64,000 nucleotides of DNA from Pycnopodia helianthoides (taxonomy: Eukaryota > Echinodermata > Asteroidea > Forcipulatida > Asteriidae): NCBI GenBank assembly GCA_032158295.1, contig CM063244.1, positions 21,082,815-21,146,814 of the forward strand, written 5' to 3'. Positions 5,162 to 62,963 of this stretch are shown here, piece after piece (position 1 is the first letter of the stretch; each line of letters begins with the position of its first letter). The position numbers and the translations under genes are program-made. Below the pieces are notes generated by a model. It was not told where the DNA came from, searched no databases, and saw only the letters and a program-made list of their open reading frames with translations.

Positions 5162-5169
5162 TATAAAAG
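5162..5169 (+). promoter_or_regulatory. Candidate TATA box, receptor copy 2
   Basis: TATAAAAG sits at the position equivalent to the copy 1 box, about 820 bp before the ATG. Confidence 0.3.
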
Positions 5170-5884: not shown

Positions 5885-5985
5885 GCAGAAAGTCCAAGTT
5901 CAGTTTGGTTGACTGTGATAGCTCTTAATAGTGTTGGAGGGAAAATAACTGTGTTCTTTGTTTTACTGAAAATAAAAAGACTGAA

Positions 5986-6993
5986 ATGGAGACGACAACG
6001 TCACTTCCTTCTACAACTGAAAGTTCAAATGCATTGGGCTCATTTGTTGCTGTTTCGGGTACAGTGGTTGGAGTAGCAACAATTCTGATCCACCTTTGGA
6101 TTGTAGTCTGCATTGCAGTCACTGAAAGACTTCACACCATATCCAACTATTTCCTTGCTAGTCTCTGCGCATCTGAGATTTGTGTTGGGATAGGCTGCAT
6201 CTTGGGGAGCAATGTAGCCCAGACGTTCTCTCAGAAGCATTTAGTGCTGTACTATGCCTCAGTTATATCTTACATTTTTTGTACAGTTTCCAGCTATCTA
6301 CTGAATTCAGTTTTGATAGCAGCAGATCGCTACATGAAGATTGCCCGGCCACTACAATATCTTAGTCTCATGTCCGACAAAAGATGTGTTCAGCTCATCA
6401 CAGCAGTCTGGATTATTTGGCTGATCCTTGGTCCGACTGTTTTTGTGTATGTCTTGACAAGCTTTGAAGACGATGAAATTTTCGTCGAAGAAATAATTAG
6501 CAACAATCGTGTAAAAATACCTATGACTGTCATTTCAAATGTAACCGTGTTCCTGCTCGTTGTTTGTGTTGCTTGGTTCATCGTTGCTCTTGTGCGCATC
6601 GCTAGGAAACAGAAACGTAGAATTCAAACAGAGATGCAGATGTTAGGGCACATCCGTCACAATGATGCACAACAAAAAGATGGTGTCGATTGTAGAGTAT
6701 CAGAACCAGTTCAGCTGCAAGCCAGGGGCAGTAACAAAACCACTGTGTACTTTATTGTCCACTTTACTGCATATGTTACTGCATGGATTCCAGCTATTGT
6801 CACATTGAACATATATTCATTTAGTTCCATTCCATTGGAACACAAGTTCATAACATTTTCCGGGGGTTTGTTTTTAGGTCTAGTTCAACTGTTGCTCGGA
6901 ACCTTGTTTCTGGTTTATATGCAAATTGAACATCGACAAAGTTGTAGGACAACATGGCAGAAACTTTTGGCATTCTTTCAAAATTATCATTAG
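5986..6993 (+). CDS. Rhodopsin-like (class A) GPCR, copy 2, intact
   Basis: This is a single-exon, 335-residue, seven-helix receptor for the plasma membrane; the ligand is unknown. Helices lie near residues 20-45, 52-74, 90-113, 135-157, 181-205, 253-276 and 288-312. Class A marks are DRY at 114-116, Trp in TM4 (WIIW) and a proline in TM6 (AWIP, in place of CWxP). Odd points are a Glu (SEI) where TM2 normally has Asp, no TM1 Asn, no NPxxY in TM7 (GTLFLVY instead), and no obvious TM3/loop-2 cysteine pair. The N-terminus is short and Ser/Thr-rich. The start ATG is conserved in copies 1 to 4 with context GAAATGG. A lineage-specific chemosensory or peptide receptor expansion is plausible but not shown. 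Confidence 0.9.
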   Translation: METTTSLPSTTESSNALGSFVAVSGTVVGVATILIHLWIVVCIAVTERLHTISNYFLASLCASEICVGIGCILGSNVAQTFSQKHLVLYYASVISYIFCTVSSYLLNSVLIAADRYMKIARPLQYLSLMSDKRCVQLITAVWIIWLILGPTVFVYVLTSFEDDEIFVEEIISNNRVKIPMTVISNVTVFLLVVCVAWFIVALVRIARKQKRRIQTEMQMLGHIRHNDAQQKDGVDCRVSEPVQLQARGSNKTTVYFIVHFTAYVTAWIPAIVTLNIYSFSSIPLEHKFITFSGGLFLGLVQLLLGTLFLVYMQIEHRQSCRTTWQKLLAFFQNYH

Positions 6994-7075
6994 AATCATT
7001 TTGCAAGGGTATAAGATTTTCAGTCATAATGAACTAAATAACTGGTTTAAATAACTGGTTTATTTCATGTACATA

Positions 7076-7081
7076 AATAAA
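7076..7081 (+). terminator. Poly(A) signal AATAAA, receptor copy 2
   Basis: AATAAA lies 83 bp after the stop, conserved with copy 1. Confidence 0.5.
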
Positions 7082-7226
7082 AAAAATTCAAGTGGCCCAG
7101 AGGTCAAAAGTGATTCAATGAACAGCAAGGATTTGTAACTATTAAAGATAAAAATACATCAAGTTTAAAATCATCAAGAAAACATTTTTAAAACTCATTA
7201 TATCTTGCTCCTTGCCACCTTTTCTA

Positions 7227-7862
7227 TTTAAAGAGGAACTAACGAGGTCAAATTCATTTTTGTCTTGCACTAGTTTTCCAAAAGCTTGAGTCCTCAAATG
7301 AGTGGGGAAAAAATTACAAATCTCTAACCTCACGTTAAACTGGTGTAAATTGTCATTGTATTCAATACCCCACCAGTGCTAAATTGGTCAACATCCAAAA
7401 CATCCGATGACATCACTCTGGTGTATATGGGTGTGTACATTTCTGTAAGTGAAATTGTTGGTTGATTCCTGACTTTTTTCAGAGCAAAATTTGAAACATG
7501 ATGTCATTGGATTTCAAGAACTAAAGGGTCTTTACATTCCAAGGAGGACATTTTTGTCAGTCAAAAGGTCAAATTCAAGGCTGTTTTGATTGAATATTGT
7601 TGAAAGTCAGGAAGAACCCAAATCATTCCCGTACATAAAGATGTACAGACCCATTTATACCAGAAAGATGTAATCGGATGTTTTTGGTGTTGATAAATTT
7701 CACAGTGAAATGGTTTAGGATACAATGACAATTTACACCATTTAAACATGAGGTTAAAGAGTTGTACCCCCCCCCCCCCCCCCCGCTTCTATGATGGTTC
7801 TATATATTGTTAAAATGAGTACGTCACAAAATTGAATTTGACTTTGTTAGTTTCTCTTTAAA
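7227..7862. mobile_element. TIR element, family G, between receptor copies 2 and 3
   Basis: This copy matches the element at 3271-4049 without the 146-bp insert. It ends in TTAGTTTCTCTTTAAA, the near inverse of its left terminus. It contains the long poly-C tract at 7767-7784. Confidence 0.6.
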
Positions 7863-9600
7863 CGTATAGTCTAGCAGCCTATCTTATTGTACAGGCACTG
7901 GAGGCAATAGACTGTGTAACTCTCTTGAGTAAAGGAAAATGAGGAAATTAGAAAGAATTGTTTTTTTTTGACTAAATCAAATCTTCTGTTTAAGATCTAT
8001 TTATACACAATTCCTAAAAGTACAAATTACCCATACATGTATAAATAAAAGATACCAATTGTTTGTATAATACAAACAATTTGTTAAAATTAACATTGAA
8101 AAAACAAAAAAAACTTTGGGACGAGGGTGATTAGTTTCTGAAAACTTGATTTGCAAATCACAGCAGAATTTGTGCAACCATTGTAAAGGTTTATTGATAA
8201 CATGAATGTCATTTGGGCAAAATGTTTAAATGATTTGTAACCGGAAACAGAGATCAAGTCTTATTCTCTGGTTTTATTTGTTGTTCTGTTCAATTTATTT
8301 AACTTTTATATTATTTCAATGTTGAATTTTACTTTCCTAACAATATAACATAATTGTTTAAAGCCATAACAGGCCTTGTGTTTAATTTTTTTTGTAAAGT
8401 AGCCCACTGGTCTTGTAAACTCTGCATTTTACTTGCCCAAGGAAGTTTTAGAATTGTCACTTATTTGTCTTTCTGATTTAATAATAGTAGCAATCACAAC
8501 TTACGGTCAAATGAAGTTAGTTACATTCACACACTGAAAAATAAATTAGTACATTTTCAAGGTTTGTTATTCACATGTGAGAAGTAAAAAATATGAGCAT
8601 TTTAAACCAGTAGATTGCACAGCTTTTAGTCGCCCTCATGGCAAGTTGTGAAGTGCTGCATCCAATCTTTCTTGGGAAACCATGTGCAGTTCAAATTAAA
8701 TCAAGTTGCCAAGATGGACGCTGTACTGTAGTTTACATGTAACTATGCCAGGTTTTACTCGTTGGGCACTGCATTGCTTTAAAATCAGCAGGCCTTGATG
8801 GATGCCGGTGTTGTTTGGACTCAGATTTAACCCAGAATCCATTGCGCGCCTATCAGTTCCAATCATGCTCATTGGGTAGTATTTCAGACCAAACAACTCC
8901 CTGAAGAATTGGTCTTGGTTTAAAGTTTTTAATCAGTGATAATTCCCTTATTAAAGGAGGGAAAAAATTCAATTATGGATTCTAAATAGGCTGTACAAAA
9001 TGAAGTACAAACGCCACTCTATTTATTCTAACAAAGGGACATTTTTGTTTATTATGATTGTTCTCCAGAGGAATAAGTAAAAGTAAATAGATGTGAACGT
9101 TGATAACATTGTCATTCGTACTGCAAAATATTGTCATTGATTGATAGATTTAAATCTCAAGAAGAATGTTGTGGTAACTTTACTTGAGATTGTCAAGTTC
9201 TCCTCAGTAGCCAATTTGACTGTTCGATGTAATTGCTTCTTCAATAATAATTTTTCAAACAATGTTCTAATATTTATTGATAAGTTACATTGGCCCTGTC
9301 ATGCCTGTGTGGAAAATAATTGGCAGGTTGAGTGAGCTGAAACTAAGCCCATGCAGATATAATCTATGAATGTGATGTCATACATTTTCAGATATTTGCC
9401 ATTCTGTGTGGTGCAGTAGTAGAGAAATGAACCTCTTTGAGTTTCATTTAATGAGTAATTATTGAAGCCACAAGTTCAATTTCTTTAGCATCTGATTTTA
9501 TCAAAGTTCATGTTGGATCATATTTCTTTTTTTCTTTGTATTACTCATATTATTACATTTGAGGAAAAAATACTGTAAAGGATATTTGCTTCACCATATG
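7863..9600 (+). other. Upstream flank of receptor copy 3, no gene
   Basis: It is homologous to 126-1900 and 4050-5860 but more diverged. The TATA-like box is degraded (8948-8957). No gene is seen. Confidence 0.55.
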
Positions 9601-9611
9601 AAGAGACTGAA

Positions 9612-9632
9612 ATGGAGACCAAAATGTTGTAA
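9612..9632 (+). promoter_or_regulatory. Conserved short upstream ORF, copy 3
   Basis: It encodes METKML, a single-residue change from copies 1 and 2. Its start context and its 101-bp spacing to the receptor ATG are unchanged even though the surrounding flank has diverged. Confidence 0.4.
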
Positions 9633-9733
9633 GCAGAAAGTCCAAGTTCAATGTGGTTGACTGTGATAGCTCTTAATAGTGTTGGAGGGAAAATAACTCA
9701 GATTTTGGTTAGACTGAAATCAGAAAGACTGAA

Positions 9734-10741
9734 ATGGAGACGACAACGCCACTCCCTTCTACAACTGAAAGTTCAAATGCATTGTGCCTGACTGTTGCTG
9801 TTTTGATTGTAGTGGCTGGAGTAGCAACAATTCTGATCCACCTTTGGATTGTAGTCTGCATTGCAGTCACTGAAAGACTTCACACCATATCCAACTATTT
9901 CCTTGCTAGTCTCTGCGTATCTGAGATTTGTCTTGGGATAGGTTACATCTCGGGGTGCCATCACGCCCAGACGTTCTTTGAGAAGCATTCAGTGCTGTCT
10001 TATGCCTCAATTTTTTCCCTCAGTGTTTGTACAGTTTCCAGCTATCTACTGAATTCAGTTTTGATAGCAGCAGATCGCTACATGAAGATTGCCCGGCCAC
10101 TACAATATCTCAGTCTCATGTCCGACAGACGATGTGTTCAGCTCATCACAGCAGTCTGGATTATTTGGCTGATTCCAGGTCTGAACCTTTTTGTGTTTAT
10201 GTTGACAAACTTTGAAGCTGATGAAGTTTTCATTGAAGAACTAATCAGCAACAATCAGTTCAACATATTCCTATGTGTCAGCGCAGATGTAACAATGTTC
10301 CCCCTCATTGTATGTGTCACTTGGTTCATCGTTGCTCTTGTGCGCATTGCCAGGAAACAGAAACGTAGAATTCAAACAGAGATGCAGATGTTAGGGCACA
10401 TCCGTCACAATGATGCACAACAAAAAGATGGGGTTGATTGTAGAGTATCAGAGCCAGTTCAGCTGCAAGCCAGGGGCAGTAACAAAACCACTGTGTATAT
10501 TATTGTCCACTTTACTGTATATGTTACTGCATGGGTTCCAGCTATTATCACATTGAACATAGTTTTGTTTAGTTACTTTCCATTGGAACACAAACTCATT
10601 GCATTTTTCGTGGCTATGTTTTTAGCCATATCTCAACTGTTTTTTGGAACCTTGTTTCTGGTTTATATGCAAATTGAACATCGACAAAGTTCTAGGACAA
10701 CATGGCAGAAACTTTTGGCACTCTTTCAAAATTATCATTAG
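9734..10741 (+). CDS. Rhodopsin-like (class A) GPCR, copy 3, intact
   Basis: This 335-residue, single-exon receptor is collinear with copy 2 (5986-6993), without gaps. DRY is at 114-116, and the TM2 Glu and the missing NPxxY are shared. The N-terminal tail, TM2-TM3 loop, extracellular loop 2, TM5 and the TM6-TM7 region differ a lot from copy 2 (for example SNNQFNIF against SNNRVKIP, and NIVLFSYFPLEHK against NIYSFSSIPLEHK). By contrast the third intracellular loop, about residues 203-252, is identical in protein and almost identical in DNA. This suggests a shared G-protein interface with diversified ligand-facing parts, or gene conversion of the loop. The copy 1/2 poly(A) hexamer is not retained here. 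Confidence 0.9.
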   Translation: METTTPLPSTTESSNALCLTVAVLIVVAGVATILIHLWIVVCIAVTERLHTISNYFLASLCVSEICLGIGYISGCHHAQTFFEKHSVLSYASIFSLSVCTVSSYLLNSVLIAADRYMKIARPLQYLSLMSDRRCVQLITAVWIIWLIPGLNLFVFMLTNFEADEVFIEELISNNQFNIFLCVSADVTMFPLIVCVTWFIVALVRIARKQKRRIQTEMQMLGHIRHNDAQQKDGVDCRVSEPVQLQARGSNKTTVYIIVHFTVYVTAWVPAIITLNIVLFSYFPLEHKLIAFFVAMFLAISQLFFGTLFLVYMQIEHRQSSRTTWQKLLALFQNYH

Positions 10742-13370: not shown

Positions 13371-14790
13371 TTACTACAAATGTTTTATTTTGTTTTGTGG
13401 GATGATAAACACTACAAATGTTTTATTTTGTTTTGTATGATGACAAACACTACAAATGTTTTATTTTGTTTTGTAGGATGACAAACACTACAAATGTTTT
13501 ATTTTGTTTTGTAGGATGACAAACACTACAAATGTTTTATTTTGTTTTGTATGATGACAAACACTACAAATGTTTTATTTTGTTTTGTAGGATGACAAAC
13601 ACTACAAATGTTTTATTTTGTTTTGTAGGATGACAAACACTACAAATGTTTTATTTTGTTTTGTATGATGACAAACACTACAAATGTTTTATTTTGTTTT
13701 GTAGGATGACAAACACTACAAATGTTTTATTTTGTTTTGTAGGATGACAAACACTACAAATGTTTTATTTTGTTTTGTAGGATGACAAACACTACAAATG
13801 TTTTATTTTGTTTTGTAGGATGACAAACACTACAAATGTTTTATTTTGTTTTGTATGATGACAAACACTACAAATGTTTTATTTTGTTTTGTAGGATGAC
13901 AAACACTACAAATGTTTTATTTTGTTTTGTAGGATGACAAACACTACAAATGTTTTATTTTGTTTTGTAGGATGACAAACACTACAAATGTTTTATTTTC
14001 TTTGTATGATGACAAACACTACAAATGTTTTATTTTGTTTTGTAGGATGACAAACACTACAAATGTTTTATTTTGTTTTGTGGGATGACAAACACTACAA
14101 ATGTTTTATTTTGTTTTGTAGGATGACAAACACTACAAATGTTTTATTTTGTTTTGTAGGATGACAAACACTACAAATGTTTTATTTTGTTTTGTATGAT
14201 GACAAACACTACAAATTAATGATTTATTTTGTTTTGTATGATGACAAACACTACAAATGTTTTATTTTGTTTTGTATGATGACAAACACTACAAATGTTT
14301 TATTTTGTTTTGTATGATGACAAACACTACAAATGTTTTATTTTGTTTTGTGGGATGACAAACACTACAAATTAATGATTTATTTTGTTTTGTATGATGA
14401 CAAACACTACAAATGTTTTATTTTGTTTTGTATGATGACAAACACTACAAATGTTTTATTTTGTTTTGTATGATGACAAACACTACAAATGTTTTATTTT
14501 GTTTTGTATGATGACAAACACTACAAATGTTTTATTTTGTTTTGTATGATGACAAACACTACAAATGTTTTATTTTGTTTTGTGGGATGACAAACACTAC
14601 AAATGTTTTATTTTGTTTTGTATGATGACAAACACTACAAATTAATGTTTTATTTTGTTTTGTATGATGACAAACACTACAAATGTTTTATATTGTTTTG
14701 TGGGATGACAAACACTACAAATGTTTTATATTGTTTTGTGGGATGACAAACACTACAAATGTTTTATTTTGTTTTTTGGGGATGACAAAA
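13371..14790 (+). repeat. 38-bp satellite, about 37 copies
   Basis: The unit begins GATGACAAACACTACAAATG and continues with TTTTATTTTG and TTTTGTAG. A variable spot reads TAGGA, TATGA or TGGGA, and several copies have ATTAATGATT in place of ATGTT. The variants fall in mixed blocks, as expected from unequal exchange. There are no unique spacers and no coding sense. Confidence 0.95.
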
Positions 14791-15145
14791 ACTAGAAATG
14801 TAGGTGTTAAGGAATTCACATTATTATTATTTATTATTATTATTATTATTTTATTTGCCATAACAGTACAAAACAAAATACAAGACGATATTACCCCGAG
14901 ATGGGCAAGGGACAACAAAAGCAAATACATACTATGATCCGTAGATCTGTTGCCCCAAATCTGGGGTACACAATGAAATAAAAATAGATTTAAACATATA
15001 ATATAGATTATAGTACACAGTAGCAATAAAAAAGCAGATAATTATACAAAACCAAAGTAAATAATAATATCTAATTTATAAAACGAGAATAAATAAGTAA
15101 AATAACAGTAAAAGTAAAGACAAACAAAGAAGTAATATACATGTA

Positions 15146-46179: not shown

Positions 46180-46600
46180 AGACCCTAACAGGGGAGGGGT
46201 ACACCATACCCTAACAGAGGAGGGGGAACAACATACTATAACAGGGGGGGTACACCATACTATAACAGGGAGGGGTACACCATACTATAACAGGGGAGGG
46301 GTACACCATACTATAACAGGGGAGGGGGTACACCATACTATAACAGGGGAGGGGTACACCATACTATAACAGGGGAGGGGGTACACCATACTATAACAGG
46401 GGAGGGGTACACCATACTATAACAGGGGAGGGGGTACACCATACTATAACAGGGGAGGGGTACACCATACTATAACAGGGAGGGGGTACACCATACTATA
46501 CCAGGGGAGGGGGTACACCATACTATAACAGGGGAGGGGTACACCATACCCTAACAGAGGAGGGGAGGGGTACACCAGACCCCCAAATTGGGTTCACCAG
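46180..46600 (+). repeat. 26-bp G-rich minisatellite, about 15 copies
   Basis: The unit is ACACCATACTATAACAGG plus GGAGGGGT, with one-base length variants in the G runs. Edge copies carry CCCTAACAGAGG. The repeated GGGGAGGGG runs on the + strand could form G-quadruplexes. Confidence 0.9.
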
Positions 46601-48959: not shown

Positions 48960-49499
48960 ATGTTTTACCGTCGTCTTTCAGTCGGTTTAAGGCAGGCAAC
49001 AGCATGTGCCACCAAAGTATTTCTGTTCAACACAAGGCAAACTAAACATCTGAGTTTGAACCAGAGGTTTTATGCAAGTGCATCAACGGGACGAATCTCA
49101 CTGAATCCTCGACCCGTTAGTATTCAACATGGTGGAGGCAGTTGTGCATCTAAAAGTAAAACTGCATCCAGGTCGAGTTTATTTGCTCGGAGACTATCAT
49201 CATCAGGGCCAGCTTGCGGTAAGGAAGAAGAACCCAAAGCAAGCAAACCGCTGCTGGGCCTCCAACCAAACGACTTTGTCGACTTCATGAAAGAGAAGAA
49301 AATCCGGCGAGGTTTTATCGTGTACGATAGGGAAGCCGGCGAAGTTCGGGTGTCCCACCCGGAGCTGGCAGAGCTGGGGGATTTTGCTCGCGACGACCGG
49401 GTGGATTATGACAAGCACGAGGCGGTGTTCCTGGAGATCGGAGAGCGGTCGGGTTGCTTACTGGGTGCGTTCGTCTGGAGGACCAACAGGGGGCAAGCT
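48960..49499 (+). CDS. Dehydrogenase exon 1 (presequence and N-domain start)
   Basis: It has 180 codons ending RTNRGQA before donor GTAAGG. Residues 1 to about 85 are basic and Ser-rich with no family match (targeting region). Residues 95-180 match the start of the catalytic domain (HEAVFLEIGE...GAFVWRTNRG). GC content is higher than in the flanks. Confidence 0.85.
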
Positions 49500-52400
49500 G
49501 TAAGGAACTGCACACCTTCCATGAGATTTTTTCATGAGAATGTGTTTTTTCACCACTTAATCCAAATAATATAATACAAGAATAAAGTTCTATCCCAAGG
49601 ACTAGGATTAAGAAGGAGGCCTAACCTAGTTTAAGCCAGTCATACTCAAAGGTCACCCTTGCTGGTTTTCCACCATAAACTTTCAGCTGATCATGACTGG
49701 CTTGATAAGAACAAGGACCTTGCATTTATTTTTTACATTAGTCATGATGATTTGTCAGGGTTTTGATAATCACAGTGAGCTTAGTCCAGGTTGAACTCAT
49801 CCGTTGGAAGTGCATTTCCTTAGAAATTTGTCTAGTGCGGAAGGAGCTTAAACCAACATTAGATCTCAAGAACACCAAATATGAACAACTTCATTAAAAC
49901 TAATAATCCATTATGCCTTGTTAAGGATATTTGATTAGCCTTCCCAATCCAACCAACTATCAAAATTGGCGCAACCCATTTAAAATTTGCAAGGAAGTAC
50001 ATGGAAAATTAAAATCTTTGTGATTTGTCCTCACACTTCTGAGGATTTTCCCATTGACCTAGCCCTAGCATTTATAGCTTTATTACTCCGAAATTTGTAG
50101 CAGTTCATAACAGATGTGTGGGGAAGGGAGGGGGCACACGGTTGTACAGGGTTTGCCCTTAACCTTTTTAGTGACTGGCCAGCAGGACCAGTTAGCTTGT
50201 CATTTCAGTAGTTCATGAGCTTTTTCACTAGTCCGTATTTCAAGAAATAGGGATGTTTTTCAAAACTGAACTAGCCAGCCGGACCAATTGGAGTGAATTT
50301 GGACTGGTCCACAAGTGGTTTTATCTGGCATTTGGCCAACGGTCCACTGTTAAGGGAGGATGCTGATTGTACAATGTACCTTCCCGTCCCCATGAAACTG
50401 TGGGGGGGGGAGGATAGATACTAACAGGAACTATTCATTTGCATGGCAAAATATTTTGACAGAACAGATTTTGTGCACACAGAATGCTAGTATTGAGAAG
50501 CAAATATGATAATTTGTGAGTAGCAACTGGGTTTGCTATACAAGGGAAATCGTTCACTGATATTTGTTCTTACTTAATAATAATAATAATAATGCATTTA
50601 TAATGCGCCATCTATCTAGTGTACGAGACCCTATTCCGAGGTGCAGAACAAAAAACAAAAACATATAGGCCTAAGCAGCAAAAGAGAAATATAGAATACA
50701 AAGACAATTATACAGATGAATAATCTAAGACTTGACTAGATCTTGGCCCAATGTCATAGCTCTGCTTACTTTAGGCAAAAAATTGGTGCTTACGGAAGCA
50801 GGGAATTCCGTGCTTACGTCGAGCGTATTTTACAGGTTAGCAAGGAAAGTCCACATTACTAGGCATTCTTCTCTTACAGAGCTTGTGCTCTGAAATTCGG
50901 GGTCGCCTCCTAAATGAAGAATGGTGGTCGCAAGCGTAGAATTCGGCAGTAAGCAGAGCCATGAAATTGTGCCCTGTTCTGCTGAAATTGAGACCGTTTG
51001 GACAGGATATGGAGTTCTAGATAAACTAATGATGTGTTATTTATTCCTCTGAATCTCTCCTCCCTTGTCAACCAGTGCGGTGGTATCCGGCTATGGGACT
51101 ACACAACCATGGAGCAGTACTTGAGGGACGGACTGCGGCTTGGCCAGGGAATGGGAGTCAAGTCAGCTCTGGCTGGTTTATGGTAATATCTGTTAACCCT
51201 TACCGCCATGATAATCATTTAATTATTTTACTAAAATAATTACTATAATGAGTTTTTAGGCACCCTGCTAAATGCATCAAAATGCAGTACGGTTAGATAA
51301 AAGTCCTGCTAAATGTAGCAAAATGGCAACAAAGGATTCTGTACCATTTTTGAAGCACAAAATTTAGCTAGGTTACCAGCCAAATATCATTCAACATGTA
51401 CCACGTGTGACTGGTTTCCTACTAACTTTTGCTCAGCAGAAAAAAGTTAAGCACAATTTTCTGCTTATAAAGCAGCTCTATACAGGGCCTAATTTCATAA
51501 TGCTAGCTGAAGAAACTGCTTAGAAAATTTCTTTGCTAAGCAAAAAATGAGTGAGGCACCAGTCATGACAGTGTACAGTTTATGGAATTTTGACTGGTAA
51601 CCTGTTTCTGCTGAGCAATATTTGTCTGTACTTGTCAAGTATTTGTGCTTACAGGCTTTATGAAATTGGACCCAGGTTCAAACAAGCCTTGCAATTTGTA
51701 CCTGTGCAGCACCAATATGCATTGGAAGATTGCTGGGGGACGAGGGGGGATACCCTGCTGTGCACACAATGCAGCAGATTATTATAGCCTGCCCGATATG
51801 GGGCAGAGGGTCCCCCCCCCCCCCAACGTTCCCATACTTTAACACACTATTTTCCTTTTGTATAGAACTCCCCCCAAAAATCCTCAAAAGAGTTCCTGAG
51901 ATTCCAAGCACACAATAAAGACACAATAGGGGGGGGGGGGTACCCTCTGCCCCATATCGAGCACCAATTGTAGATTATTGGTATTGAGTTGACTGCTAAA
52001 TGCAACACAATACATAACCTTTTTTCCCAAAAGTCAGATCGAGCTGCAGTTTACTTCAAATTTGCAATCTCTACCAACATGTTAGGAATAGATTAGAAGA
52101 ATGAGTATTTCTACTGTATCAAAGTGACACCCCCCCCCTGTGTGTCCTTCTTAAATTGCATAAATTTACAAACTGTATACAATGTATTGACAACCACTGA
52201 CACGCATCACAGAAGTTGTACTGACCCTTCACACCATTGTTATGTTCTGACCTTTTTTGTGAGAGCTACCCACATTAATCCAGTTGAAGATGAGGGAGGG
52301 GGGATGGAGTCTGCATTGCGACCTTTCCCATACAAGCATTTCATTTCAATCCAGCTCATTGGTTCTCAACGCATTCTGATGTTTATAGAGACCCCATGGA

Positions 52401-55400
52401 TGTATCCATTTTCCATTGTGCCCAACCATTCAGGCGTTGAGATATTGGTAAATGTTCAACCATGTTCATTCTGTCAAAAAAAGTGGATCATAACTCTTTT
52501 TTAAATTTCTTTGTTTTGTTCAGCACCTAAATTCTTCATTTTTTGTACGACCAGATGTGCCTTCAAATAAGCCTCAACTGTACATTTCACATTATCAGGC
52601 CATTTAGGATAACTATACTCCTGCGGCCCCAAAATTCTCAGGTGTTAAAAACAAAATAGTGGATACATTCAGGCCACTTTGGCCTTCAATAGATGCAAAG
52701 TTTGAAGGGCACTGCAGTTAAGCTGTTAAATACATTAATTAATTTCATGCGGCATGTCCTGGCCGAGTGGTTAAGAGCACAGAACTCAAGCTCTGGTGTT
52801 TCTGATCAGCAGAGTGTGGGTTCAAGTCCCGGTCGTGGCACTTTGTGTCCTTGAGCAAGATACTTTACCATACTTGCTTTGTCCTTTGGATGGGACATTC
52901 AGCCGTGGGTCCCATGTACGATGGTTGGTAGTGCCTGTAGAAGAATCCAGAACACTGATCACGGAAGAGTAGGTGTTTCTGGTTCACATAGCAAGCACCC
53001 TTGTTTACAGGTTTCCTCAGGCTTGCGAGCTACAGTGATTAAGTTCACTTATGAGGCACTAGTAATATATATAGTAGTAATGAATGCTTGCTCAATTTAT
53101 CCAAATTATTGCTGGAAAGGGGGAAAAAAGCTTGGCTCTTGTTTTAGAAATAGAAAATCTGTAGCGAGAAAAGACCAGTTGTCCTCCAGATTCTATTAAC
53201 CCTCCTACATTTTTGAGTTATTGAGTTGACCAACCATATAAAACCATTCTGCACTGGTTGTGTGTGGTAGAACACTGTGGACAGCCATAATTAGTCAGCC
53301 GAATCAGACAGCGAAATCAGTCGACCAAATCAGCCAGCCGAATCAGCTAAGTGTAGCTGCAATCTGCATGGCAATAGCTAACTTGTAACACACTGTATCT
53401 GCAGGCTTGTGATTTCCTAAAAAGTTCTTTGAGCTTAAATTTTTTTAGAAGAAGTAAAGCAGTCACCAAAGGGAGAAAGAAATAGTCCGTGTTGTGTGTA
53501 AACCTGTTTTTTGTGGTATTTCTGGAGATGCACAGAGCCTTTAAAGCCTTTAAACTCCCGATTGTGACATCTTGGAGGTTCTGGGCTTAGAATAAGGGGG
53601 AACCCAGGCCCGCAAGCCATGTATCAGGAATTCTCACATTTTGTCAAATCTTAACCCAGAATCTGAAAATTATGGTCTCTGAACTTCTCAAGGCTTAAAC
53701 CCGTCTTGTAGGGGAAGTAGTTACTGCTTAGATTTAGGAAATATTTACAGGTTTAAAGGAACATTACAGAATTGGTAAGAAAAAAACTTGTAAAATATAC
53801 TTTTTATCACAGATTTACATAAAAACTTACACGGTCTAATGATGATGGTAGTAGAAAACATCCCTTGAAATATTTCTGTCTGAAATGCCATATTTGATGA
53901 GAAATGAACAAACTAATTTTCCGATTGGAGTTTATCGCTCAGTGAGCGTTTTTTCATTGTTGAACCTATATGATTTCATGCAAATGTGTAATCGGTTTTT
54001 CACTATTTTCTTGTGACCACGATGGCTGATCGATCTCAAACTTCTACAGGTTTGTCAGTTTATGTATATGGTGGATTACATAAAGTGCTTACACTGCCAG
54101 CAACTGTTTTGTTAGCAAAAACCAATTCTGTAATGTTCCTTTAAGTAATGAATAATTTCTTTACTACTTTGAGCTCACGCTTTCCAGACACGAGTCTTCA
54201 AAAAATCATGCTTTTGTGCTGAGCAAAATGTTGTGGAAGGATACCTGTAGCATTCACACATTCTATTTCATTTCATTAAAAAAAAATAATTAAAAAAATG
54301 GAAAACTTAACCCAGAGGATGATTACTTGCAACACAACTTTAATATTTATTTTTGCTAAACACATTTTTCATTTGAGTTATTTAACAGAGTTGAACCTTT
54401 TCTTTTCGAAGCATTTCATCAAGTCCCATGCGTTTTTTGTTTCTTTTGTTTTCGTTTTTTTCTTTTGTTCCACATTTGGCAACCATTTTTTGACATCTCC
54501 ATCCTCACAGGGCCGGTGGAGGGAAAGGGGTCGTTCAGCAACCTCGTCTAGGGGAACATCTGGATCCAAACACCCGCTCAAAGATACTCTTTGATTACGG
54601 GAACTTTCTGTCCTCTTTAAATGGTTGCTATGGTATGACAACTTCACACGTTTTTCTGAAACTGCCCTGTTGACAAGAAGTGGGGGATAAATGTAGTTTA
54701 AAGACTGTTTATGCTTGTGATGTGCACACTGTCTGTAGAGACCACCGTTTGACAACATTTTAGGGTGTCAGAGCTAGACTGACACTGGCAGTACAGTAAC
54801 TGCATTTTGCACACTTGTTAAGTATAATTTGTGGCTTAACCAGGTGTGGCGGATCCAAGCATGGAGAAGTGTGTTGCATAGCGTGGCATATGAAACAGAT
54901 GGTTTGAATCGGTGTCATGGTATGCCATTATGATCAGTCTATACTAAATACATAATAAATAATGGTAATATATTAATTATGTACATGTACATTATCATAA
55001 CACTGGTAATAGACCTTATGCATGGACGTCGTCCAGCCGCCATCTTAGAGGTGACCCAATGTTGAAACAAAGAAAAGACGCGCAGACTTGTTTGCGAGGC
55101 GCACATCATTGGCCAATGAACAACCTCCTTTTGACCTCTGAGCGAGGGCCCCCTATCAGTCATGTGCATAAGGTCTATGCCGGCCAGCTTGCAATGTACG
55201 CAATTACACAGAAGTGTGATGACTGTACACATCTGGTGATAGAATTGAATAATGGTATTGAATGCACGCCATTGTTAACATCTGCACTGCATTGATCAAG
55301 TGTACTGTGTCCATGGGCAATATTACCTTGAACGCTTCACTTCACCAAATGTGGGATCATAAACCTTTAAAGCTGACACTGTTGTCCCAACAAAATTTCT

Positions 55401-58400
55401 CTACAAAACAATCTTGTAGTGCCAATTGTAGTGCCATCTTAAAAAAGTGGTTTTAATTGACGGTATTTTTGACCACATGAGGGCGCTGATCTCCTCGCAT
55501 CACAATTACAGTTTTATCTTATTTTGACTGCCGGTAGGTTGTTTTCTTGTATCAATGGGCAAATAAATAATAATAATAATAGCAATAATGGTAAAACCAG
55601 TTTGTTTGACTTGTTTTCCATTCTGTAAATTTTGTTCACACATGTCCTCAAGTGGTCAAAATTACCGCGAATTGTCCGAACATTTTTTAGTTTCCTACCC
55701 AAGAGGTTGTTTGATTGACTGTTTTCTAATATGACTCACAAAAAAATAGTCTGATTCCGTCCACAAACGTTTCTGTAAAAATTTACTCAGTGCGAATGCT
55801 TGTAGTGACCCATTGCACAACGTGCAGCACACTCACACACGCCTATCCGGGCTGCCATTTCAGGAGTCAAAATGTACACAAAGGAATTGACTACCAAAAT
55901 GGTGGATGCACATTGTGCGGTGTGTTTTCGCACCGTGCAAGGGGTCAATATATACAGTGCCTTTTAGATGCATTTTTTAACAATGGTGATGTGTTCGCTG
56001 CTATCATTTGGTTTTGTTTGTCCTTTGTTTTAATAAATGTTTGTCTTTCACTTCATCATCTCCCCCCTTTTTCTTATTTGTTCACTTTCTTGTATTTTCA
56101 AATAATTACCTTATCTTTTTCTTTGCGTGCCCCTCTTCTTCACCCCATCTTTACCTCCAATATAACTTTCCAATCTTATTTTCAACTCCTTACTTTTTTT
56201 TAAATTACCATTTCATCTTGTCTGCACACTTTGCTACTGCTTTATTTTCCATTTTCAGTTGCTGCCTCCATTCCTTTACTCTTATCAATGCATCCTTTTA
56301 TTTATTCACTCACCTGAACCCTATTTTTACTCGCCTTCCCCTCTTTTCATTCTCACTCCTATCCCATTTTCTCTTTCCACCCCAAATTGAATCCGTTCTC
56401 TTGCATCAAACCAAATTACATTCCTTCTCTTGCATCAACCCCAAATTGCATCCCTTCTCTTGCATCAACCCCAAATTGCATCCCTTCTCTTGCGTCAACC
56501 CAAATTGCATCCCTTCTCTTGATCAACCCCAATTGCATCCCTTCCTTTGCATCAACCCAAATTGCATCCCTTCATTTGCCCCCCTGCTTTGTTTTCATCC
56601 AATCTGTTCTCTCTAACTTCCTCTTTTCATTGTGACCAATTGGACCCGCTATCCATTCTCTTCTTAACCCCTGCCGCCCTCCCCTAACCCCTGCCCCCTC
56701 CCCTAACCCCTTCCCCCTCCCCTAACCCCTGCCACCCTCCCCTAACCCCTGCCCCCTCCCCTAACCCTGCCACCCTCCCCTAACCCCTGCCACCCTCCCC
56801 TAACCCCTGCCACCCTCCCCTAACCCCTGCCACCCTCCCCTAACCCCTGCCACCCTCCCCTAACCCCTGCCACCCTCCCCTAACCCTGCCACCCTCCCCT
56901 AACCCCTGCCACCCTCCCCTAACCCCTGCCACCCTCCCCTAACCCCTGCCACCCTCCCCTAACCCTGCACCCTCCCCTACCCCTGCCACCCTCCCCTATC
57001 CCCTGCCACCCTCCCTAACCCCTGCCCCCCCTCCCCTAACCCCTGCCACCCTCCCTAACCCCTGCCACCCTCCCCTAACCCCTGCCACCCTCACCCTAAC
57101 CCCTGCCACCCTCCCCAACCCCTGCCACCTCCTCCCCTGCCCCTCCAACCCCTGCACCTTCCACCCAACCTATCTCACCCTTCTTTCCTCCCTCTATCTC
57201 CTCCTTCCATTTGAAGGGCTGGTGGTGGCGTGGTTGTAGTGTGCGAGCCGAGGGAGCGACTTCTCTCTGACCTACGCTCATCTCTTCTGGCAGACTGCGG
57301 TTGCTTTCTGACCAGCCTGAACGGATGCCTTGGTATGGGGCTTGGCTGAATAAAAAATAATCAGTTACAAGAAATTCAAAAGTGTTTTTTTTTTAATTTT
57401 TGTCCACATAAAAAAAATTCATTTCAAAATTATATATATATATTTTTTACAATAGAAAACCCCCAAAACATTCCCCTAAATTCGAACAGAGTTTGAACAT
57501 CTGTGTTTTTTCCCATTTTTTCTTCTTCTTTGGTTTGTTTTCTTTTGATATTTCCTTTACTCACACATTTATTTTGGGACAAACTGATAAACTATAATGC
57601 ACATTAAAATAGTTCACTCCTTGGAAAATTACTCGATAGCATTCCCCCCTCCAATAATTTCCTGAGTGTGCGACCAACAAATAAATAATTTAAGGTTCAG
57701 TATACACACAACGTCCATTTAAACATAATTTATACTTATAAAGTGGGCATAAGGGTAAAGTGGGTAATATTTTAACAGTTATAGAATATGCTGATTCTTG
57801 CACTGTAAGTATTATTTTTATTGTGGAGTGGCATGGTTCTTGCTTATTTTATTCCTTTGCATAATTACACTCTTTATAGAACTAACAGTGTCCTGTGTTA
57901 GTTTTGTTCGCACACTACTCCTATTTTCCTGCACACTGTGTTTGGTTTGAAGCTTTGATGTGATGTGCTACAACCAAAGTTGTCAATAGTGGAACACTTG
58001 CATGTAAAATGATTTAAAAAAAACCAATAATAGTTAGAATCCCCAGTTTTGCTCTTTTTGATTGAATGTTTTATTTCTGCTAGCGATACCATACATATAT
58101 AGTAAACTGCTGCACGCAAAAAATATTGAAATGCAGAATCAGTTATTCATAATTAAAATATACTTTCTTAAAGGCACTGGACACTATTTGTAATTACTCA
58201 AAATAATTGTTAGCATAAAAACTTACATGGTAACGAGCAATGGAGAGCTGTTGATAGTATAAAACATTGTGAGAAACGGCTCCCGCTGAAGTAACATAGT
58301 TTTTGAGAAAGAAGTAATTTCTCAGTAAAATTTTGAATTTATTTTGAGACCTTACGCGTGAGGTCTCGAAATCAGGCATCTGAAAGCACACAACTTCGTG

Positions 58401-61400
58401 TGACAAGGTGTTTTTTCTTCCATTATTATCTCGCAACTTCGACGACCAATTGATTTCAAATTTTCACAGGTTTGTTATTTTGTGCATATGTTGAGATATA
58501 TCTAGTGAGAAAGACTGGTCTTTGAAAATGACCAAAGGTGTCCAGTGTCTTTAAATTTGATACTGCATTTCTTACAAAACTGAAGAATTGTTTCCTGCAG
58601 TGCACCATTCCATCAGCGGAGTTTACTGAAAGATTTGCAGGCACTGGGGAATTGAGTGTTCCATTATACTTGGCTGTGATTGTAGCATTAATAACAGTAC
58701 ATTGCTGGTATGCATGGCTACCTGTAGAGTCTAGACTCACCAAAGTTGGCAAAAAATAACCTTACAGACTGTGCAAGTCTCTTGAACTCCAAAGTTAGAA
58801 TTTTTGTTGCTTTCACGATGCAACGGGAGATTTTTAAACGCTAGATGGCAGCAGACATACCAGGTAAATTTCCACTATTTATCTAGTTCTAAGCATGCAC
58901 ACAATGCAGAGAACAATGGATATGCCTGGTAAGTCTGCTGCCATCTAGCATTCCAAAAGTATCCCATTGGGAACCCAAGGTTCTTAAAAAGGTTCCAATA
59001 CGGGATACCCGCTAGACTTGCACAGGCTAATTGCAAACTATAACAAGATTGTCATTTACATTAGTATTAGCAGTTTGGCATAATCTTTTTCTTTTGTAAT
59101 ACTTCACTCTCGTGCACCAAGGCTAGGATATTTGTTTTCAACATAACGCCAAATATTTCAAACTAGATAAAACAGTGTGTGTCATTACTCTGCTCTAGAA
59201 CGTGAAGACATGGTATAGTTCTGGTGATTACTGGAAACAAATGGACAGCTCATTCTAATTGCATAGACCAATGCAAGGAGTTTATTTCAAACAAAAACTT
59301 GAAATAAAAATTGATTCTTGGTAGCACCAATCAACTTTAATGGCATTGTTATTCCAGCTGGAAAAATGTAATCCTTGGGAAAACTTGTATTTGAATCCGA
59401 TCTTATTGACTTGCACGGCAAGACATAGGTATCATTCATGTAACAAAACACCACATTGTTTTTCTAAAAAAACCAGACCGCCTATCTTCAGTGAAATTTA
59501 CACAAGTCAGATTTTTATGTTTTTAGAATCCAGAGGGTTTGAATAAATGATTCTCTGCACAAATCATCTATGTAATTATTTGATTTCGACAAAACGTACG
59601 TTTCAGTAAGCGAAAACAGTTCCGGATGCTTAAAAAGAGAATGTCATTTATAACCCATGCATAATATTATAAAAAAACTAAAATTGTTTTTTGCATTTTG
59701 TTGTCAGTTCTTTTTTTTCCTTGCTGCTTTTTTTCCCCTGTGTTCCCCCTTCCAATTTCCTGTGTTTTTTAAAACTAAATTTGATTTGAATTATAATTTG
59801 TTTGCAGTTGCAGCAGAGGATGTTGGGCTCAACGTGATAGACCTGGACAATGTTCACATGTTCACCCGCTACACGACTTGCATCTCCGAGGAAAAGGGTG
59901 GTTCTGGAAACCCCTCTGTGGCCACCGGCAAAGGTAGGCTTCGTCCTTCTCAACAATATCATGTCAACCAGGCTCTGCGTACCGCCCAATTCTGCGCTTG
60001 CGATCACCATTCTTTGCTTACAGGGCAAGCACCAAATTTCTGCGCTAGCCGTGTAAGCAGAGAATGCCTAGTAATGTGTAGTACGCACCTGCACAGGCGA
60101 GCATTCCCTGCTAACCCGCGAAATACGGTCGACGTAAGCGTGGAATTCCCTGCTTCCGTATTAGGCGCCAATTCTTTGCTTCTGGTAAGTAAAGCCATGA
60201 AATTTGGGCCCAGGACTTTTAAAGACACATTATTTTGGCCATCTTGAATGTGTGAATACAGGGCAGGGAATGATTCCTACTAGCAATTTTACATAGACAA
60301 ATATTTTGAAAACATTTCTTGTGCACACTGAATGCTAACATCAAGTAGCAAAGCGTGATTTTTCAGTAGCGACTGATGCATTTTGATCGGCAATTTTCTA
60401 ATGCTATATAAGGAAATCGTTCACTGCAGGATCCCATATTACCATTATTATGATAACAGTGCTTGTGTTTAAGGCATCTGGGCCCAGTTTTATGGCTTAC
60501 CGCAGAATTCTGCATTTACAGCTCGTAGAATTATGTGCTTAAGCACCAAAAGCGCAGAAATCTGCAGTAAGCAGAGCGATGAAATTGAAATTTTCATTCA
60601 AGTTTTAACAGAATGATATAATAATGTATTTATTGAAAAAAATAAAATTTTACTCTTAAAAAAAAAAATAATAATAATCAAACCAAAAAAAAAAAAGGTT
60701 CCCCACTCATGTCCCTTTTCATTAATTCTGGATGGAGGTAACCAACGCAGTGGAAGAAGAAATATTTTTGGAGAATATCTGGCCTGATTCTTTGTTCTTG
60801 TAAGGGCAAAGTTTTAGTGAAGGTCACCACGATGAAGGAAATTTCATTTCTGCTGGAACATTTTAAGGGGCACCAAGGCAATGACCAGGGGCATAATAGA
60901 GGCATTGTCTCTGTGACATATCAGGCATGGAATAGGTGTTCTGCTTGATGTACGGCATGTCGTGGCTGAGCGAATAAGAGCGCCGGACTTGGGCTCTGGT
61001 GTTTCTGTTCGGCATAGTGTGGGTTTGAGCCTGGTCGTGACACTTGTGTCCTAAAGCAAGACACTTAGCCATTATTGCTTCGTCCTTCGGATGGTCCTGT
61101 GTGTTGTGTAATGCATGTAAAATACCAAGTGCACTTATCGAAAAGAGAAGGGGTTCGCCCCGGTGTTCCTGGTTTGATTGGCTGCATATTGCGCCACAGC
61201 ATCGTGCAAACATTACATGGTGCTATGTAAAGGAATAGGTCTCATACTTCAAAAACATAGCTCCATATTACCTTGCAGGAAAATACTTCTTTTGCTTAGC
61301 GCCTCGGAATAGGCAACTAGAATGATGGCGCTCTACAAATGTCTCATGATGATTATGTACTGATGAAGTGTCCCTTTTCATCTCTTCTTGACAGGTGTGA

Positions 61401-62963
61401 TCTGTGCAATGGAAGGAGCTCTTGACTTCTTACACATGGGTACTCTGGTAGGAAAGAGAATCGGCATACAGGGAGCTGGAAATGTCTGTAGGTTCACCTC
61501 ATAATTATTCCTGTGATTGAACTGTATTTTCTGTACCAGTTTTGGTTTCAGATTCAACCCATTAGACACCATAGCATCAGCAAGTGGCTTGAACAAAATG
61601 CTCATAATGGGCCCAAGCAGCTTGTACCAAAATGCCATAGTGGGATCAAGCAGCTTGTACCAAAATGCCCATAGGTGGGCCGCAAGCAACTTGTACAAAA
61701 ATGCCCACAGCGGCAGCAAGCTACTTTTACTAAAATGCACATAGCGGCTTCAAACGGCCGTAAGATTTGACCTACTTCCACTCAACACAAAAAGGTCATA
61801 GTAAAGGTCATGTCATATAAATTGATATTTTCCATTAACTCGTAATAGAATTTTAGAATTCCGCGCGGTTTGTACGGAATTAATTATTGGACGTCGCCAT
61901 CTAATGTGTCAATATTACCTTTGGCGCGATGGAAAGCCAAAGGCAGCAACTCAAAGCCGCTGCAACTAGGGTCAGAGGTCATCCAGATGGCAATACAGCA
62001 TAAATTATGTAAAAAGGCACACGTCATGGGGATGCCCCGCGTATCTACAGTGACGTCAACGAGCCGCTGTGAGCGGCTTTCCGTAGGGAACGGGACATTT
62101 CTGTGAGCCGCTGTGAACGGCTCGCCGTAGCGAAAGAGTTAAATCCCATGTTGGCATGCTAATTACATTTTCTAAAATAAAGCAAATTTTCTGTTTCGCA
62201 TCATTATTCCAGACACTTTTTTCTTAAAAAATCCTGTCAAAAAATCATCAATATTATCAATGTCTTGGCATATGTTGATGATAATAAAGAAAGAAATGGT
62301 CTCTAAAAGGTTAAACAATCAATGTCTGAATTAAACGGAGCAAAACTGTAAAGAACAAATCCTTTTAGGAAACTTTCCCGATTGAGGGGGTTTCATTTTT
62401 AATTGGTATATTTCAGGCATTGATCTGACAATGCTGCTGCTTCCCAGGTTGTATCGTAAACTTGGGTGTGATACCTGGCTACACAGCAGTTAACGGTTGC
62501 AGGGCTTCTGACTGGCACCCCCGAACAAAGATATTGACAAAATAGGGAGACCGCCACCATAGGGCTAGATAGCTCAGTTGGTAAGAGGTACGTTGGTTAA
62601 AATCCCGCTCTAGTCAATTTTTCTTTGTTCAACTCCAAACCATTTGAAATTTACCCAGTCAGTTTCCCTTGTGGTTCATTACTTGACAAGAAATTATTTT
62701 CTGTGTGGCGTTTAAAGAAAAGTAACATACTTTGCTTCACCCTCTGTTTTAAAGTTTGCACCATAACTCGCAAGCCTTTTTGGTCTTGAACCTCCGTTTC
62801 CTTTATGCGTTTTTCTGCGGTTGACTTAATTGCAATTGTCTTATTCTCCGTGTGAGCAGCCACTGTCATCGTCCAGGAGCTTTTGAAGAAAGAGGTGTCC
62901 CACATCTTTGTGACTGACTGTCACATGAACAGGGTGACAGACATGAGGAATAGATTCCCAGGG
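48960..62963 (+). CDS. Glu/Leu/Phe/Val dehydrogenase, leucine dehydrogenase type, 5' part
   Basis: The family oxidatively deaminates amino acids with NAD. Visible exons are 48960-49499, 51076-51182, one of 54511-54632 (A) or 57217-57332 (B), 59808-59933, 61395-61487 and 62860-62963; the gene continues past the window. The N-terminus MFYRRLSVGLRQ with many Arg and Ser and no acids looks like a mitochondrial presequence. Family marks are GGIR, GMGVK with substrate Lys 209, GGGK with catalytic Lys 221 (12 apart, as in bacterial leucine dehydrogenase), AAEDVG with Asp 261, GNPSVATGKG and the Rossmann GIQGAGNV with an acidic VTDC strand end, which fits NAD. ATG 48960 is preferred for the presequence; an in-frame ATG at 48846 is possible. 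Substrate is unknown. Confidence 0.85.
49500..51075. other. Dehydrogenase intron 1 with MITE-3 variant
   Basis: (AAT)n at 50576-50593. A family 3 variant lies at about 50742-50976, with ends GGCCCAATGTCATAGCTCTG and an inverse. A related copy lies near 59985-60212 in intron 4. No other gene is seen. Confidence 0.5.
51076..51182 (+). CDS. Dehydrogenase exon 2 (substrate-lysine exon)
   Basis: The acceptor is AACCAG and the donor GTAATA. It reads CGGIRLWDYTTMEQY to GMGVKSALAGL plus the two bases TG of a split Trp codon. GGIR and GMGVK are core family motifs. Confidence 0.93.
51485..51675. mobile_element. MITE, family 3, in intron 2
   Basis: GGGCCTAATTTCATAATGC and the inverse ending ATGAAATTGGACCC form the ends. 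Confidence 0.55.
51800..52740. other. Intron sequence, no gene
   Basis: An inverted pair, GATATGGGGCAGAGGGT then CCCs (51798-51826) and GGGs then ACCCTCTGCCCCATATCG (51932-51959), could form a stem of about 30 bp. Nothing coding is recognised. Confidence 0.5.
52751..53045 (+). mobile_element. SINE, family A, in intron 2
   Basis: The head GGCATGTCCTGGCCGAGTGG and the B box GGTTCAAGTCC are followed by a body like that at 60954-61352. Confidence 0.65.
53753..54144. mobile_element. MITE, family 2, complete copy in intron 2
   Basis: TTAAAGGAACATTACAG and its inverse form the ends. It is almost identical to 42195-42578. Confidence 0.8.
54511..54632 (+). CDS. Dehydrogenase exon 3A (with catalytic lysine)
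   Basis: The acceptor is CCTCACAG and the donor G|GTATGA. The first G completes the Trp codon of exon 2, and 40 codons follow: AGGGKGVVQQPR to NFLSSLNGCY, plus one G of a Val codon. GGGK carries the catalytic Lys of the family. An earlier donor-like GT at 54624 would lose the NGC residues that match exon B and is less likely. It shares about 20 of 38 aligned residues with exon 3B. Confidence 0.88.
56387..56580 (+). repeat. Tandem repeat, about 30 bp, 6 copies
   Basis: The unit is CAAATTGCATCCCTTCTCTT plus GCATCAACCC. It lies in a pyrimidine-rich region running from about 56040 to the acceptor of exon 3B. Confidence 0.85.
56668..57135 (+). repeat. 20-bp C-rich minisatellite, about 23 copies
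   Basis: The unit is CCCTAACCCCTGCCACCCTC with small losses of C. It ends some 80 bp before exon 3B. The template strand carries repeated GGGGTTAGGGG runs, which can form G-quadruplexes. It is not a telomere repeat, because the CCCTAA is always followed by CCCCTGCC. Confidence 0.92.
57217..57332 (+). CDS. Dehydrogenase exon 3B (diverged duplicate, no catalytic lysine)
   Basis: A long pyrimidine tract and TTTGAAG acceptor and a donor G|GTATGG bound an open frame with the same phases as exon 3A (2 in, 1 out). It encodes AGGGVVVVCEPR to CFLTSLNGCL, 38 codons. Compared with 3A it is ungapped, except for two residues missing at the KG of GGGKG, so the catalytic Lys is absent. LxSLNGC is kept and joins to VAAEDVG in the next exon just as 3A does. 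Either a mutually exclusive exon making a non-canonical isoform or a decaying copy. The open frame with intact splice sites favours use. Confidence 0.7.
57333..58167. other. Intron sequence, no gene
   Basis: AT-rich, with (TA)n at 57431-57444. No recognisable coding or mobile element. Confidence 0.5.
58168..58554. mobile_element. MITE, family 1, in dehydrogenase intron
   Basis: TTAAAGGCACTGGACAC and its inverse form the ends. It contains one copy of the ACGCGT-centred palindrome near 58346-58367. Confidence 0.8.
58813..58978. repeat. Short inverted repeat around CTAGATGGCAGCAGAC
   Basis: GGGAGATTTTTAAACGCTAGATGGCAGC at the left is mirrored near 58939-58975. A related piece lies in WASHC4 intron 3 (28256-28400). 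This is a small foldback or MITE family. Confidence 0.55.
59808..59933 (+). CDS. Dehydrogenase exon 4
   Basis: The acceptor is TTTGCAG and the donor GTAGGC. It reads VAAEDVGLNVIDLDNVH to GSGNPSVATGK, with the first Val codon shared with exon 3A or 3B. AEDVG and SGNPS are family motifs. Confidence 0.93.
59985..60212. mobile_element. MITE, family 3 variant, in intron 4
   Basis: It ends CCATGAAATTTGGGCCC and carries TTCTTTGCTTAC and GCAAGC motifs shared with 50742-50976. A shorter relative lies at 60480-60590. Confidence 0.5.
60954..61352 (+). mobile_element. SINE, family A, in intron 4
   Basis: The head CGGCATGTCGTGGCTGAGCG and a weak B box GGTTTGAGCC are followed by the GGGGTTCGCCCC body motif shared with the reversed copy at 31728-32235. 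Confidence 0.65.
61395..61487 (+). CDS. Dehydrogenase exon 5 (Rossmann start)
   Basis: The acceptor is TTGACAG and the donor GTAGGT. It reads VICAMEGALDFLHMGT to RIGIQGAGNV plus one base. GIQGAGNV is the NAD-binding glycine-rich turn. Confidence 0.93.
61575..61760 (+). repeat. Tandem repeat, about 40 bp, 4-5 copies
   Basis: The unit is based on AGCAGCTTGTACCAAAATGC plus CATAGTGGG. It starts about 90 bp after the exon 5 donor. Confidence 0.8.
61890..62145. repeat. Intron repeat with GAGCCGCTGTGA doublet
   Basis: GAGCCGCTGTGAGCGGCT and GAGCCGCTGTGAACGGCT, each palindromic, lie about 45 bp apart at 62061 and 62105. GC-rich compared with flanks. Confidence 0.55.
62445..62640 (+). mobile_element. 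SINE, family B, in intron 5
   Basis: The GTTGTATCGTAAACTTGG body, then AGGGAGACCGCC, then GGGCTAGATAGCTCAGTTGG, with a shortened tRNA-like module and no complete anticodon arm. Confidence 0.6.
62860..62963 (+). CDS. Dehydrogenase exon 6 (Rossmann continued)
   Basis: The acceptor is GAGCAG and the donor GTAAGC. It reads STVIVQELLKKEVSH to MRNRFPG and ends in phase 0. VTDC gives the acidic residue at the end of the second strand that binds the NAD ribose. Confidence 0.9.

Follow-up and report, generated by a model that had tools for sequence, protein, structure and literature searches.

The question raised by this stretch of the Pycnopodia helianthoides genome (64,000 nucleotides (nt) of contig CM063244.1, bases 21082815-21146814, hereafter the window) is what a single enzyme gene does with two versions of one internal exon when only one of them encodes a catalytic lysine. 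The gene, whose 5' part lies in the window, belongs to the Glu/Leu/Phe/Val dehydrogenase family and is of the leucine dehydrogenase (LeuDH) type, and the two exons in question are 3A and 3B. The starting points are matters of observation, namely the anatomy of the gene, the homology of 3A and 3B, the conservation of 3B at the protein level, and the loss of the lysine from it. The answer that we consider probable, with reservations, is that the exclusive exon pair toggles this single-locus amino-acid dehydrogenase between an active enzyme and a lysine-less, probably inactive, regulatory subunit.

Exon 3A (54511..54632, 122 nt, encoding the segment AGGGKGVVQQPRLGEHLDPNTRSKILFDYGNFLSSLNGCY) and exon 3B (57217..57332, 116 nt, encoding AGGGVVVVCEPRERLLSDLRSSLLADCGCFLTSLNGCL) lie, like every feature of the gene described here, on the forward strand. 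They are adjacent and homologous, they share the same phase (2 in, 1 out), and both are bounded by AG acceptors and GT donors (ATG|GTATGACA and TTG|GTATGGGG). The translated joins between exon 2 (51076..51182, 107 nt) and exon 4 (59808..59933, 126 nt) are open through 3A and equally through 3B, each exon alone keeping the frame, as is characteristic of a mutually exclusive pair. Inclusion of both brings in a TAG at the eighth codon, with the junction-spanning codon counted as the first, and skipping of both leads to a TGA stop in exon 5. Because both exons or neither would give a stop, productive messages are expected to hold A or B, not both. The sequence and its translation bear out what the first-pass annotation had said of the coordinates, splice sites, phases, open joins, and the two stops; its broader statement that the gene structure enforces the use of exactly one exon stands, as judged from the coding logic, for productive protein output and does not extend to splicing itself.

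The two exons appear to be the products of an old duplication, as had also been proposed from a rough count of 20 of 38 matching residues. Alignment of the A segment (40 codons) with the B segment (38 codons) gives 22 identities in 38 aligned residues, and the local alignment score of 88 compares with a maximum of 44 among shuffled sequences (0/20,000 as high), which rules out chance similarity between B and A. When exon A was used to scan the window in six frames (5-residue steps), the 14 best places all fell at exon A or exon B. Nucleotide differences between the two number 16, 12, and 27 of 38 at codon positions 1, 2, and 3, respectively (Fisher test, third vs second p = 0.0012, third vs first p = 0.020). 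Third positions are thus near saturation while first and second positions are not, which points to two coding sequences that have been under selection since the old duplication. We take 3A and 3B to be a real, old, mutually exclusive exon pair, which would be used exclusively in RNA.

A fact of more weight than the pair itself, and one absent from the first-pass annotation, is the presence of the catalytic lysine in the segment that is swapped. Counted along an alignment to LeuDH (Protein Data Bank (PDB) entry 1leh), the lysine of the GGGK motif in 3A falls on residue 80, and its AAA codon occupies 54524..54526. Exon 3B has GGGV, and in the alignment of the two segments the Lys80 position is taken by a GTG (Val) codon at 57230..57232. 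The same alignment to 1leh places the residue-68 lysine in exon 2 (MGVKSA) and the residue-115 aspartate in exon 4 (VAAEDVG). Asp115 of LeuDH is catalytic, and mutants of Lys80 have been made, for which the primary paper cited is reportedly that of Sekimoto in 1993. With valine at the Lys80 position, the exon swap takes away one of three catalytic residues, and the other two sit in shared exons. Lys80 is described in the available account as the general base of LeuDH, and deamination by a Lys80 mutant is put at 1.5% of wild type (PMC12018205).

Membership in the family is well supported for both forms. With its final four exons, which lie beyond the window end, the gene encodes full proteins of 533 (A form) and 531 (B form) amino acids, and PF02812 and PF00208 score above the Pfam cut-offs in both. 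The best relatives of solved structure are mostly leucine dehydrogenases. Like the Leu, Phe, and Trp dehydrogenases (PDB 6acf, 1leh, 1bw9, 5b37), the A form combines PF02812 and PF00208 with GGGK, the Lys68 equivalent, and AEDVG, so that the family domains and all three equivalents (Lys68, Lys80, and Asp115) are there; it differs in that the animal N-terminus is longer and that the B form is without Lys80. The closest protein among the matches listed is P0001 of the starfish Asterias amurensis; it is itself a B form, with 87% (A) and 90% (B) identity over 539 aligned positions. The four relatives scanned against NCBIfam (P0001, P0002, P0006, P0052) fall below the cut-off of every family listed for them, all of these being bacterial or archaeal models; they score best with Trp_DH_ScyB, whose cut-off is 600 bits, and reach 160-195 bits there. 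Taken together, the gene is, by its sequence relationships, an echinoderm amino-acid dehydrogenase of the LeuDH/PheDH/TrpDH branch at a single locus. A mitochondrial location of the protein would be a guess from its arginine-rich start.

Exon 1 (48960..49499, 540 nt, with the ATG at 48960) encodes an N-terminal leader and the start of the N-terminal domain in an open frame and has 82% identity to P0001; GT donors are available, and the donor taken was 49499, an alternative at 49496 likewise preserving the frame. The PF00208 domain begins in exon 5 (61395..61487, 93 nt, IQGAGNV), which is followed by exon 6 (62860..62963, 104 nt), and exons 7-10 complete the gene in continued coordinates at 64080-64175, 64875-65018, 66306-66395, and 66916-67095.

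That A and B come from one locus is indicated by searches of the species' own assembly (479,350,823 bases). An A-type protein gave 12 matches, which are the eleven exons of the gene and one weak match elsewhere (E 0.757), and a B-type protein gave 11 matches, all of them the eleven exons. A search of the assembly with PF00208 gave one match, on contig C19, where the DNA encodes an ordinary mitochondrial glutamate dehydrogenase. A second gene copy was thus sought and rejected, no second locus having appeared besides the weak match. It might still be supposed that A and B stem from two gene copies that were collapsed or mis-joined in assembly, and the examination did cover one assembly only. This is very improbable: the exons follow one another in their proper order along a single contig, where 2584 nt separate A from B, the searches with P0001 and P0002 give no second locus apart from the weak match, and four additional species have B-type segments within proteins that are full-length in other respects.

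Those species came to light in a comparison of 120 proteins listed of 388 found, in a database that gives one protein per 90%-identity cluster. The Lys80 column holds K in 113 of the 120. Four of the seven exceptions are echinoderm B-type proteins, all labeled isoform X2, with V in Asterias amurensis, V in Acanthaster planci, I in Amphiura filiformis, and M in Anneissia japonica; they represent two starfish, one brittle star (Amphiura filiformis), and one feather star (Anneissia japonica), and hence three echinoderm classes. The first-pass annotation had held that loss of exon B in sister species would speak against it, and the isoform models of these four species carry the segment. All four keep the Lys68 and Asp115 equivalents, and their segments sit in otherwise full-length proteins. 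A-type segments are found in Patiria miniata isoform X1, Antedon mediterranea, and Holothuria leucospilota. Searches with the exon alone were of low sensitivity: Asterias B retrieved the B forms of Asterias and Acanthaster (2 of 10 candidates), Anneissia B retrieved only itself (1 candidate), and Amphiura B was missed. No sea urchin appears among the named proteins of the 120 listed, which do include starfish, brittle star, feather star, and sea cucumber; the sea urchin gene may be absent or may be hidden by the listing. In P0070 (Centruroides vittatus isoform X2), GGGK is kept and the later part of the same segment is gone (the protein reads FYDYVTAMDIG), a pattern suggestive of alternative splicing, or of a splicing misprediction, at this place in the model.

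Another reading of exon B is as a relic, or as a poison exon whose sole use is to lower expression. Between starfish its amino acids are conserved about as well as those of A. Window B matches Asterias B at 33 of 38 residues (90% identity by the exon match to isoform X2), with lengths differing by exactly two codons, and across to Valvatida the figures are 30/38 for B (window-Acanthaster) and 33/40 for A (window-Patiria, 80% identity to isoform X1 by the exon match). In comparisons across starfish orders, the constraint on exon B thus looks similar to that on A, exon B looks selected as coding sequence, and a decayed relic was rejected on the ground of this similarity in amino-acid conservation. 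Farther away, window B matches brittle-star B at 20 of 38 and feather-star B at 17 of 38 residues. Among the 113 proteins that have the lysine, which was itself the criterion for choosing them, nine positions of the segment are near-invariant (at least 95%), and window B and the four other B forms all keep seven of these nine, the exceptions being the lysine and, in some, the following glycine. The early stop upon double inclusion and the large minisatellite in the intron upstream of exon B are points in favor of a relic or poison exon. However, B alone keeps the frame and the full protein, the differences between A and B are greatest at third codon positions, and B is found in full-length isoform models of four species, so that we regard this explanation as improbable. 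A more fitting description of the B form is that of a candidate pseudoenzyme by sequence, that is, a conserved sequence without the catalytic residue, which has V (window, Asterias, Acanthaster), I (Amphiura), or M (Anneissia) where LeuDH has Lys80.

In the mechanism that we propose, exon 3A would supply the active-site segment with its general-base lysine and so give the normal enzyme, and exon 3B would supply the homologous segment, with most near-invariant residues kept and the lysine gone, in a full-length isoform identical outside the segment. It is presumed here that B is made as protein and that it would be incapable of normal LeuDH chemistry. Bacterial leucine dehydrogenases are oligomers. 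It is plausible that B is mainly a non-catalytic folded subunit that, most simply, would join A in mixed oligomers, with splicing setting the share of dead subunits and amino-acid deamination. Double inclusion or double skipping would lead to stop codons and to unproductive transcripts, and such messages would presumably decay.

The main rival on function is that B is an active enzyme with another substrate or reaction, much as COQ-2a and COQ-2e swap part of an enzyme core. Seven of the nine near-invariant positions of the segment and the shared Lys68 and Asp115 equivalents are kept, and in COQ-2 a mutually exclusive exon is reported to alter substrate choice (eLife 2020;9:e56376; PMC8659336). 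Lysine-less forms are also not absolutely dead, as ammonia partly rescues Lys80 mutants of LeuDH in the account given in PMC12018205. Against this, the lost residue is the general base, and neither the V, V, I, and M of the other B forms nor the V of the window can act as a base, while the rescue as described used 1 M ammonia, which lifted deamination to 20% (PMC12018205). An active B with other chemistry therefore seems to us unlikely, though clearly less so than a relic.

How the choice between the exons would be made is the weakest step of the proposed switch. Perhaps it is set by a regulated 3B acceptor, which closes an AG-free, pyrimidine-rich tract (56259..57214, 956 nt) with branch-point-like CTAAC motifs, 20 of which were counted in 56640-57216. 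Neither strand of the window has a longer AG-free stretch than this tract (the next is 634 nt), and at the gene's nine other acceptors such stretches measure 1-98 nt. At 956 nt, the AG exclusion zone before 3B exceeds the 150 nt used as a criterion for distant branch points. Its composition would lead one to expect 8.95 AG where none is found (0/2000 shuffles at zero); with its arrays collapsed, the expectation is 3.28 and about 2% of 2000 shuffles are at zero. The arrays are a minisatellite (56665..57129, 465 nt) of the 20-bp unit TAACCCCTGCCACCCTCCCC x 23.7 and a further repeat array at 56379-56573. A search of the species' own assembly for two exact units of the 20-bp repeat gave 6 overlapping matches, all of them in this tract. 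In human genes, large AG-free zones are reported to accompany distant branch points and alternative exons, although an AG-poor repeat can, by the same account, make such a zone without any apparent splicing role (PMC1431707; Genome Biol 2006;7:R1). Exon 3B resembles those exons, as far as they are described there, in that a large zone free of AG precedes the acceptor of an alternative exon, and it differs in that the zone measures 956 nt, is about half minisatellite, and offers only candidate motifs for a branch point. The tract is accordingly a candidate control element or merely a repeat.

Other causes of exclusion were also considered. Steric hindrance is made unlikely by the 2584-nt intron between 3A and 3B. 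Incompatibility of U2 and U12 splice sites was rejected by comparison of the donors with the U12 consensus, both being GTATG-type and of the ordinary class. Inverted repeats in 51183-59807 (arms of at least 16 nt, seed 11) number seven pairs, none of which links the introns beside A and B; the only pair joining distant places, I6 (51427-51443 with 54212-54228), has both arms in the intron before 3A. A mechanism of competing RNA structures is thus without support at this sensitivity.

Several points weigh against a regulatory exon swap, and the repeat content just described is one of them: the minisatellite makes up about half of the AG-free tract (465 of 956 nt), which may have no bearing on splicing. 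The B isoforms of other species are gene models from public records. Isoform models of such kind usually rest on transcript evidence. No other species was seen to have A and B proteins together in a database that shows one protein per 90%-identity cluster, and the isoform labels and member counts suggest that these clusters conceal the partner isoforms. The loss of catalytic residues is also not special to an exon swap: three ecdysozoan proteins are without Lys80, and a few other animal proteins are without Asp115. The former, which complete the seven exceptions, are Nymphon striatum P0036 and P0059 (both N) and Priapulus caudatus isoform X2, P0052 (S). They resemble the B forms in having lost the Lys80 equivalent, and they differ from them in that a second catalytic residue is lost as well (Asp115 to G in both Nymphon proteins, Lys68 to T in P0052), so that the change reaches beyond a single swapped segment. 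Apart from one insert, P0036 and P0059 are identical and presumably come from one gene, and all three proteins may perhaps be inactive ecdysozoan homologues. Among the others, P0062 (Sinanodonta woodiana) and P0053 (Potamilus streckersoni) keep the Lys80 equivalent and have T in the Asp115 column, P0062 also having R in the Lys68 column, and P0104 has a gap in the Asp115 column.

The remaining points on that side concern the origin of B, as examined in a segment tree of 20 rows and 40 columns (five further candidates with a 39-residue segment were left out). The three starfish B exons group together with support of 99/97. The grouping of starfish and brittle-star B has 80/92, and only 68/84 when the lysine column is masked. 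Anneissia B is nearer to the A segment of the feather star Antedon (25/40) than to window B (17/38), and a starfish-only duplication, in which starfish A and B group together, is not formally rejected (approximately unbiased test, p-AU 0.07; 0.115 masked). It is accordingly a fair possibility, a little short of an even chance, that starfish, brittle star, and feather star do not share a single lineage of B exons and that lysine-less twins arose at least twice in echinoderms, which would be compatible with the proposed function. The free tree is in keeping with this, placing feather-star B among A exons, and of 200 bootstrap trees 52% have all B exons on one side of a branch, a share that drops to 26% once the lysine column is masked. 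On the other hand, a single origin of all five B is not rejected either (p-AU 0.40; 0.317 masked), all five segments lack not only the lysine but also the usual Q or A at segment position 9 (C, C, C, S, P), and the tree rests on 40 columns only. Either B would be older than the split of the living echinoderm classes or lysine-less twin exons would have arisen more than once, and 40 columns fit both. A more far-reaching proposal is that, before the feather-star split, echinoderms came to possess a splicing switch between the lysine exon of a single-copy dehydrogenase and its lysine-less twin, and that the splice-encoded pseudoenzyme would assemble together with the active form and adjust the breakdown of amino acids. 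We offer it only tentatively, and it is made slightly less probable by the masked tree and by the result for a starfish-only duplication, both of which weaken a single old origin.

Elsewhere in the window, three tandem and very similar single-exon receptor-like open frames occupy 1975-10741 on the forward strand. Two of them, 5932-6993 and 9713-10741, match the rhodopsin family 7tm_1 (E 1.3e-20 and 6.1e-19), and the first, 1975-3037, is split over two frames. Long minisatellites also occur at 13373-14801 (38-bp unit x 37.3) and 46186-46565 (26-bp unit x 14.5).

The retuning of channels and receptors by mutually exclusive exons is well known. The broader kind to which the 3A/3B pair belongs, mutually exclusive exons that alter an enzyme core, is likewise already known, and the isoform sequences are already public; it is their reading that is new. 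The nearest likeness is to exons 6a and 6e of coq-2, which are described in helminths, annelids, and molluscs (eLife 2020;9:e56376). In both cases, as far as the published description goes, exclusive internal exons swap part of a metabolic enzyme core across several phyla or lineages, with one exon limited to some lineages. The cases differ in the enzyme, in exon length (134 nt each in coq-2, 122 and 116 nt here), and in effect, as the coq-2 exons are described as changing the substrate choice of an active enzyme, whereas here the swapped-in exon is without the general base. A literature search, with most subscription journals and preprints outside its scope, found no account of a conserved pair of exons through which an amino-acid dehydrogenase gains or loses its general base. 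A conserved pair of this sort would be a clean on/off case, and, if the more far-reaching proposal above is true, one exon does the job that is usually done by a separate dead paralog. Gene models labeled "isoform X2" can conceal a functional switch, and four species carry the B-type in public records. The locus offers a natural pair of proteins that differ only in an active-site segment, with B-type forms in three echinoderm classes, and it makes the purpose of a pseudoenzyme testable within one gene.

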